DNA of 64,000 nucleotides from Rhodobacter maris. GTDB taxonomy: Bacteria > Pseudomonadota > Alphaproteobacteria > Rhodobacterales > Rhodobacteraceae. Positions 7,561 through 39,532 of the stretch are shown piece by piece (positions within the stretch are counted from its first letter, which is position 1; every line of letters starts with the position of its first letter). The notes beneath the pieces are model-generated. The model made no database searches. It saw only the letters and a list, made by a program, of their open reading frames with translations, and was not told the DNA's origin. Where the stretch lies: contig NZ_OBMT01000003.1 in the NCBI RefSeq assembly GCF_900217815.1, forward strand, positions 1 to 64,000, in the 5' to 3' direction. A program made the position numbers and the translations under genes.

Positions 7561-9456
<1,896 letters not shown>

Positions 9457-9482
9457 GGTATCCTCCCTCCTCACTTGCAAGC

Positions 9483-9511
9483 TTGTTATTCAGACAGAAA
9501 GATTTGTGCAA
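9483..9511 (-). promoter_or_regulatory. candidate prpE promoter
   Basis: On the minus strand, TTGCAC (9511-9506) and TAACAA (9488-9483) are separated by 17 bases and lie about 27 bases before the prpE start. The -35 is good and the -10 weak, consistent with an activated promoter. This is a motif-based inference only. Confidence 0.35.
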
Positions 9512-9548
9512 GATTGTTACCGTCGCAGGGGCGGAGACCGGCCGAAAA

Positions 9549-9656
9549 TTTGCAGAAACCTGCCAATTCTTGGGCGCAAATTTTTGCAAAGAGTGCAAAA
9601 GTTTTCCAGTTTGGTAGTGGATATGTGGATTTTGCAAATTTTCTTCAGTTTGCAAA
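9549..9656. promoter_or_regulatory. cluster of TTTGCAAA operators upstream of prpE
   Basis: Perfect TTTGCAAA octamers lie at 9583-9590, 9631-9638 and 9649-9656. Degenerate copies lie at 9549-9556 (TTTGCAGA), 9573-9580 and 9592-9599 (ending GCAAA). The last two perfect copies are 18 bases apart. TTTGCAAA is the recognition element of RamB/PccR-type short-chain fatty acyl-CoA regulators, which control propionyl-CoA assimilation genes in Rhodobacter. The array lies in a 357-base intergenic stretch (9457-9813) that is only about one-third GC near 9601-9660 and contains no gene. No regulator gene of this family is in the window. Confidence 0.7.
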
Positions 9657-9813
9657 TCTTCGCAGCCTTCTGCGGCCGTCCCGGTGTTCTGCTGCCCGGG
9701 GCGCGGAGGGGGCGGGGCGAGTCGGGATCCTGTCCGCCCCTTGCGCCCCCCTTGCGCCTGTCTCGCGCGCGGCGCAGGATCGGCCGGATGAACGACTTCC
9801 GGAGGCTTTGCCG

Positions 9814-10206
9814 ATGACTGTGCTCGATGCGGCGCGCGCCGTGCGCGAAAACGCCTATGCCCCCTATTCCAAATTCAAGGTCGGCGCGGCGGTACGCGGG
9901 GCCTCCGGCACGATCTACTGCGGCGTGAACGTGGAAAACGTGGCCTATCCGGAAGGCACCTGCGCCGAAGCGGGGGCGCTTGCCGCGATGGTGGCGGCGG
10001 GGGAGACCCGGATTGTCGAGGTCGCGGTGATCGCCGACAGCCCCGCACCGGTGCCGCCCTGCGGTGGTTGCCGCCAGAAGCTTGCCGAATTCGGCGGCGC
10101 TGATGTGCCGGTGGTACTGGCCACCACCGCGGGGGCGGAGCGCCACACTACGGTCGGCGATCTGCTGCCCGGTCGATTCGACGCTAGCCACATGGACAAC
10201 GCTTGA
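9814..10206 (+). CDS. cdd: cytidine deaminase
   Basis: A 130-residue deaminase with the zinc/catalytic motif TCAEAGALAAM (the C-A-E core) and PPCGGCRQKLAEF (the second and third Cys ligands). It converts cytidine/deoxycytidine to uridine/deoxyuridine. ATG at 9814 follows GGAGG. It is the first gene of a pyrimidine-salvage operon and overlaps deoA by one base (TGATG). Confidence 0.95.
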   Translation: MTVLDAARAVRENAYAPYSKFKVGAAVRGASGTIYCGVNVENVAYPEGTCAEAGALAAMVAAGETRIVEVAVIADSPAPVPPCGGCRQKLAEFGGADVPVVLATTAGAERHTTVGDLLPGRFDASHMDNA

Positions 10207-37089: not shown

Positions 37090-38421
37090 TCAGAGCGGGG
37101 CAGCGCCCCCCTGCGCCGGCGCTGCCTTTGCCTCGGCGCGGGGGTAAAGCCGTGCCATGCTGAGTGCTCGCGTCAGGTTCAGCACCATCAGCGCCGCCCA
37201 GAGCCCGTGATTGCCGAGGGCAGGCAGAAGCGCGAAGAGGGCGAGCGCATAGACCGCGACGGAGACGATCATCGCATTGCGCATCTCGCGCGTCAGCGTG
37301 GCGCCGATGAAGATGCCGTCGAGCATCCATGAGGCAATGCCGATCAGCGGCGCCGCCACGAGCCATGGCAGATAGTGGCGCGCGCCTTCGCGCACTTCAG
37401 GCGCGGTTGTCATCAGATCAATGATCGCGCCGCCAAAAAGCGCAAAGGCAATACTGAGCCCGAGTGCGCCGCCCACGCCCCATTGCGAGGAGACGATCGC
37501 GGCGCGGCGCAGGCGCGCCGGGTTGCGCGCGCCGACGGCCTGACCGACGAGGCTCTCTGCGGCGAAGGCGAAGCCATCGAGCGCATAGGCGGTGATTTGC
37601 AAAAACTGCAACAGCACCTGATTGGCAGCAAGTTTCACATCGCCTTGCCCGGCGCCAAGGAACAGGAAGGCGGTGAAGCTGCCTTGCAAGATCACCGAGC
37701 GGATCATGATGTCGGTGTTGACCCGCGCCATCTGCCGCAGCGCTGCCCCGGCAAGGAGGGCGGCCCGGCTCAACCCGGCGCGGAAGGCGTCGCGCGCGAG
37801 CCAGAGGGCGAGCGCCACCCCGGACCATTCGGAGATGAGCGTTGCGGCCGCCACCCCCGCAACGCCCCAGCCAAGGCCCAGCACGAACAGCAGGTCGAGC
37901 CCGACATTGAGTCCGTTCATCACCACTTGCAGCACCAGCACCGCGCGGGTGCGCTCCACCGCGATCAGCCAGCCGGTGAAGGCGTAAAGCGAGATCGTCG
38001 CCGGGGCGCCCCAGATCCGAACGGCAAGGTATTGACGCGCGAGACTTTCCACCTCGGCCGAGGCGGGCGCGATCTGGAAGGCGGCCCAGACGAGCGGCAC
38101 TTGCAATGCGATCAACGTGAGCCCAGCGCCAAGGGCGATGATCAGCGCGCGCATCAGCCCTGCCGCGACCTCAAGACTGTCGCCGCCGCCCTTGGCCTGC
38201 GCAACGAGCCCTGTTGTGCCCATGCGCAAGAAGCCAAAGATCCAGTAGACCGAGGCGAGAATCACCGCGCCGATCCCCACCGCGCCAATGGGGGCGGCTG
38301 CGCCGATCTGGCCAACGACGCCGGTGTCGACGGCGCCCAGAAGCGGCACGGTGGCATTCGAGATCACGATCGGGGCGGCAATCGCCAGCACGCGGCGATG
38401 GCTGATATCTGCGCTGCCCAA
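37090..38421 (-). CDS. MATE-family efflux transporter (DinF-like)
   Basis: A 443-residue transporter with 12 hydrophobic segments. N-terminal AIAAPIVISNATVPLLGAVDTGVVGQ and the second-half GFAFAAESLVGQAVGARN are MATE signatures of the DinF/NorM group. It probably exports cationic drugs or metabolites with Na+ or H+. It is followed 5 bases upstream on the same strand by the thioesterase pair, so cotranscription is possible. Confidence 0.92.
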   Translation of the reverse strand: MGSADISHRRVLAIAAPIVISNATVPLLGAVDTGVVGQIGAAAPIGAVGIGAVILASVYWIFGFLRMGTTGLVAQAKGGGDSLEVAAGLMRALIIALGAGLTLIALQVPLVWAAFQIAPASAEVESLARQYLAVRIWGAPATISLYAFTGWLIAVERTRAVLVLQVVMNGLNVGLDLLFVLGLGWGVAGVAAATLISEWSGVALALWLARDAFRAGLSRAALLAGAALRQMARVNTDIMIRSVILQGSFTAFLFLGAGQGDVKLAANQVLLQFLQITAYALDGFAFAAESLVGQAVGARNPARLRRAAIVSSQWGVGGALGLSIAFALFGGAIIDLMTTAPEVREGARHYLPWLVAAPLIGIASWMLDGIFIGATLTREMRNAMIVSVAVYALALFALLPALGNHGLWAALMVLNLTRALSMARLYPRAEAKAAPAQGGAAPL

Positions 38422-39364: not shown

Positions 39365-39532
39365 CGCGCCCTCCGTTTTTGCAAAAATGCCCTGCGGACC
39401 AGAGGAGCGCAAGCGGCGTTGAGGCATCGGCAAGCCTCAAGGGGAGTTGAACCGCACGGTTCGCCGCGCTAGCTTCCGCCATCAGCACGTGTGGGCAGGG
39501 ACGTGCGGGATCGCCCGGGGGAGGGGGAGATC

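Follow-up and report, generated by a model that had tools for sequence, protein, structure and literature searches.

A dense cluster of the octamer TTTGCAAA upstream of prpE in Rhodobacter maris raises the question of which regulator would bind it, in which direction this regulator would act and which of the two neighbouring genes it would serve. We analysed the stretch of 64 000 nucleotides that carries the cluster (hereafter, the window), together with the rest of the genome and related loci. The intergenic region concerned extends from 9457 to 9813, since the start codon of prpE lies at 9456 on the minus strand and cdd starts at 9814 on the plus strand. Its features and those of the flanking genes are as follows.

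7561–9456, minus strand: prpE, propionyl-CoA synthetase (propionate–CoA ligase), 631 aa, from its best NCBIfam matches
9457–9813: intergenic region between prpE and cdd
9483–9488, minus strand: putative −10 element of prpE, TAACAA (TAACA at least 90% conserved in 37 aligned promoters)
9507–9512, minus strand: putative −35 element of prpE, CTTGCA (CTTGC at least 90% conserved in the same 37 promoters)
9549–9556, minus strand: box C, TCTGCAAA (TTTGCAGA on the forward strand), 1 mismatch, −100 from the prpE ATG, conserved
9573–9580, minus strand: half-box B2, TTTGCGCC (GGCGCAAA on the forward strand), 3 mismatches, 10 bp from box B
9583–9590, no strand assigned: box B, perfect TTTGCAAA, −134 from the prpE ATG, conserved
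9631–9638, no strand assigned: box A, perfect TTTGCAAA, −182 from the prpE ATG, conserved
9649–9656, no strand assigned: box A0, perfect TTTGCAAA, −200 from the prpE ATG, 18 bp from box A
9814–10206, plus strand: cdd, cytidine deaminase (NCBIfam and Pfam), apparently a bystander neighbour

PrpE scores higher as a propionate–CoA ligase (NF007815, 702.7 bits; TIGR02316, 674.2 bits) than as an acetate–CoA ligase (620.6). Both propionate–CoA ligase scores fall below the equivalog cut-off, and the substrate of PrpE is therefore presumed. The conserved CTTGC near −55 and TAACA near −30 from the prpE ATG in the 37 aligned promoters presumably form the core promoter of the gene; here 18 bp separate the two elements, and CTTGCA does not match the Escherichia coli consensus. 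Neither a terminator-like sequence nor an E. coli-type promoter was detected in the intergenic region, and an Rfam search of it returned no RNA.

The preliminary description of this DNA reported three perfect octamers, three near copies and a sharply AT-rich patch in GC-rich surroundings. All three perfect copies were confirmed (9583–9590, 9631–9638 and 9649–9656); they fit in 74 bp of the AT-rich patch upstream of prpE, and the GC content is 0.333 at 9601–9660 against 0.661 for the window. The near copies fared unequally: those at 9549 (1 mismatch) and 9573 (3 mismatches, the half-box) are conserved in relatives, whereas AGTGCAAA at 9592–9599, with 2 mismatches, has no conservation support. 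The box positions, at least three in number, span 108 bp (9549–9656), box C being the nearest to the prpE promoter.

We read 57 Rhodobacterales prpE promoters collected by related-locus and genome searches. The array is present in 37 of them and absent or lost in 20; it is carried by 16 of the 17 congeneric genomes with prpE and also occurs in many other Rhodobacterales genera. Boxes in these relatives occupy positions near −182 (A), −134 (B) and −100 (C, usually TCTGCAAA) from the prpE ATG. The distance between A and B is 48–50 bp in 36 box pairs, and that between B and C is 32–34 bp; two genomes have perfect A and B boxes 58–59 bp apart, about 10 bp more. The TTTGC part of B2, 10 bp from B, is approximately 80–99% conserved in the 37 promoters. 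Box A0 is not generally conserved, 1-mismatch versions of it being found in a few relatives, and the sequence between the boxes shows much lower conservation than the boxes themselves. Outside the Rhodobacterales, none of 48 loci had a perfect octamer within 300 bp of prpE.

A patch of 33% GC has a raised probability of containing TTTGCAAA, and base composition alone might be thought to produce such a cluster. However, shuffling of the AT-rich stretch 9540–9665 gave three or more octamers in just 5 of 20 000 trials, and shuffling of the whole intergenic region in none of 20 000. Dinucleotide shuffles of the window as a whole predict 0.59 perfect octamers; five are present, a number that none of 100 shuffles attained. 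As the spacing of the boxes is moreover fixed across genera and the sequence between them is not, the probability of chance clustering appears negligible. The two other perfect octamers of the window (37596–37603 and 39378–39385) are each solitary and lie inside long open reading frames.

The preliminary description also allowed for an effect on the divergent cdd operon, in which a pyrimidine-nucleoside phosphorylase gene comes after cdd. The boxes could then control cdd, or both genes, and the cdd start does lie 158 bp from the nearest box. Among box-bearing genomes, however, cdd adjoins prpE only here and in two sister species; 32 of the 37 have a malic-enzyme gene upstream of prpE in the same orientation, mostly immediately adjacent, and the boxes remain with prpE. 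The cdd–maeB gaps of seven relatives contain no box with one mismatch or fewer. The retention of the boxes by prpE in relatives and these box-free gaps indicate that the boxes belong to prpE. Control of cdd, a recent neighbour, is thus very improbable, and this part of the description is not borne out. The prpE-linked maeB has been lost here and in the two sister species (window 9657–9813; L158, L159, L020, L219), and cdd now stands next to prpE because of the loss of this intervening gene. The sole malic enzyme retained by the three genomes is a second one, which shares about 45% identity with its prpE-linked counterpart.

The octamers had been ascribed to a RamB/PccR-type regulator, and the genome does encode a clear one. 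A search with PF09856 returned one strong ScfR gene (230 bits, contig C19) and one distant paralogue (about 49 bits, contig C56). The C19 protein has HTH_3, IrrE-like and ScfR domains, and its nearest solved relative is Mycobacterium tuberculosis PrpR (MtPrpR; 6cyy). In the alignment to 6cyy, it carries Trp at the Phe155 position and keeps all four Fe–S cysteines (Cys363/C-X2-C-X4-C ligands), i.e. the bulky aromatic residue at 155 and the Fe–S ligands of the MtPrpR type; residue numbers are those of PMC6765138, with an offset of 57 for the 6cyy chain deduced from chain 429 versus protein 486. According to PMC6765138, PccR of Rhodobacter sphaeroides likewise has Trp at residue 155 of the MtPrpR numbering, and a Trp there restores responsiveness to propionate. 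The C19 gene, hereafter pccR, has pccB, pccA and a methylmalonyl-CoA mutase gene nearby, and PccR orthologues (63–89% identity) are present in 25 of 26 relatives. The genome yielded no MmgE/PrpD-family gene; the methylcitrate cycle is therefore probably missing, and propionyl-CoA is likely to be carboxylated in this organism.

Two perfect TTTGCAAA boxes stand 25 and 45 bp before the start of pccR (L100:10073–10100, i.e. G000:C19:90072–90099), and in this genome two perfect octamers 4–34 bp apart occur only there and at prpE. All 25 relatives with PccR have at least one box (at most one mismatch) directly before pccR and usually two, most often 20–22 or 29–30 bp apart. The presence of such boxes here and in relatives suggests that PccR may control its own gene. 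The pccB promoter carries TTTGCAAA-N2-TTCGCAAA plus TTTGCAAT within 110 bp of the pccB start, and boxes B and B2 of prpE form the same TTTGCAAA-N2-TTCGCAAA tandem. Boxes are also found at most pccB promoters of the genus and family. The prpE and pccB promoters have in common a similar stretch, GGTAACAATCTTGC and GGTAATAATCTTGC, directly downstream of the boxes (window 9507–9521; L100:8310–8335). We considered whether all spacings are helical multiples. The pccR pairs are mostly 20–22 or 29–30 bp apart, but the distances are 32–34 bp between B and C at prpE and 25, 32 or 40 bp at pccB; the idea was dropped because of this variation.

Our census of sites in the genome (3.83 Mb), compiled from pattern searches and individually retrieved stretches, counted 46 octamers against 9 for the reversed pattern. 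Nearly all of the other single octamers are without a second box (at most one mismatch) within 45 bp, and most lie inside long open frames. The exceptions having a partner box are C19:88348, at pccB, and C9:88410, with its partner at a distance of 42 bp in an apparent restriction–modification region, as read from its open frames. The best reading of these sequences would be a small PccR regulon consisting of prpE, pccB and pccR. Paired octamers had been anticipated at pcc and mcd genes: boxes are indeed present at pccB, whereas the octamers inspected included no pair at an mcd gene, mcd itself not having been specifically located. A relaxed pair pattern, TTTGCN{6,30}GCAAA, gave at least 173 matches and was too loose for defining a regulon.

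We consider it highly likely that the boxes constitute a multi-site PccR operator of the prpE promoter, through which prpE would be activated when propionyl-CoA rises. PccR-type control of prpE, as originally proposed, is supported by the boxes, their conservation at fixed spacing, the presence of the pccR gene and the occurrence of boxes at pccB and pccR as well. We infer binding by PccR, its ligand, the position of the promoter and the direction of activation. For R. sphaeroides, PMC10370305 describes PccR as an activator at pccB and PMC12632250 mentions its control of pccB. Propionate or another source would raise the level of propionyl-CoA; PccR at boxes A, B/B2 and C, each of which precedes the −35 element, would then activate prpE, and pccB alongside it, and the two boxes directly before pccR would subject the regulator to its own control. 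MtPrpR is a CoA-bound tetramer whose proposed active form carries propionyl-CoA (PMC6765138), and Paracoccus RamB needs both of its boxes for activation (PMC10370305); the activation of prpE by PccR on several boxes is proposed by analogy with these two. Since the product of PrpE is propionyl-CoA itself, prpE would on this reading be subject to positive feedback from that product. The conserved boxes before prpE suggest that the cell probably turns on propionate activation jointly with the use of propionyl-CoA, i.e. its carboxylation.

The same protein might bind the array and instead repress prpE until propionyl-CoA rises. ScfR proteins can repress, as MtRamB does at icl1, and Paracoccus RamB is described as both an activator and a repressor (PMC6765138, PMC10370305); the pccR boxes, 25–45 bp before the ATG, are in a position suiting repression. 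At prpE, however, every box is situated upstream of the conserved −35/−10 pair, as at pccB, where PccR is a described activator (PMC10370305). This placement upstream of the presumed promoter makes activation likelier than repression, which we regard as unlikely. Use of the array by a different regulator reading the same octamer, whether the ScfR-like protein of contig C56 or an unrelated XRE protein, seems quite improbable: similar sites are common to MtPrpR and MtRamB (PMC6765138) and the genome does contain an ScfR paralogue, but the latter is only distantly related, scoring about 49 bits against PF09856, and the same boxes are found in the promoters of pccR and pccB.

Activation by PccR has a counterpart in the PccR/pccB system of Rhodobacter (Cereibacter) sphaeroides (Carter and Alber 2015, as presented in PMC10370305 and PMC12632250), with an orthologous regulator, the same pathway and boxes at pccB here too. 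Compared with that system as presented in these two sources, prpE has at least three box positions over 108 bp, and as a target it encodes the activating enzyme instead of the carboxylase. MtPrpR recognizes TTTGCAAA and TTTGCgAA (PMC6765138), and its site between prpR and prpD likewise contains TTTGCAAA palindromes read by a propionyl-CoA-responsive ScfR regulator. That site differs in that its two boxes, of which just one is perfect, are separated by 1 bp, and M. tuberculosis PrpR controls the methylcitrate cycle (PMC6765138), whereas no PrpD gene was found here. RamB of Paracoccus denitrificans, an ScfR regulator, also acts from boxes upstream of its target, a glyoxylate-cycle operon, and both boxes are required for activation; these two are separated by an 18 bp spacer, and the regulator subclass, ligand and target are different (PMC10370305). 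Unlike such compact two-box ScfR sites, the three-position layout at prpE (A, B/B2 and C, approximately 90 bp) might accommodate a higher-order PccR complex, with a tetramer on separated boxes making the feedback on prpE switch-like, a tentative idea that we find rather doubtful. Looping between the boxes, also suggested earlier, is possible but unsupported. For bare DNA, the 48–50 bp between A and B would make a short loop.

Regulator, octamer and pathway were all known beforehand; what appears to be new is a well-conserved prpE target of a known type of regulator. A link between PccR and prpE was not found in the literature searched, which did not cover the original study of PccR (Carter and Alber 2015), where prpE may be listed. 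Our reading would add propionate activation to the genes likely to be under PccR control across the Rhodobacterales. Among these are marine roseobacters, whose PrpE has a further role in the breakdown of acrylate and dimethylsulfoniopropionate (PMC5651017, PMC9769926). The prpE promoter would, in addition, provide a natural and highly conserved multi-box model for the action of ScfR tetramers.

Most of the checked genomes whose prpE promoter has no array still have PccR. Together with the 20 of 57 promoters without the array, this indicates that prpE is not an obligatory target of PccR. A divergent gene for an ScfR-like regulator begins approximately 270 bp upstream of prpE in Octadecabacter sp. 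B2R22 (L061:2250–2730), an arrangement unlike the PccR type.
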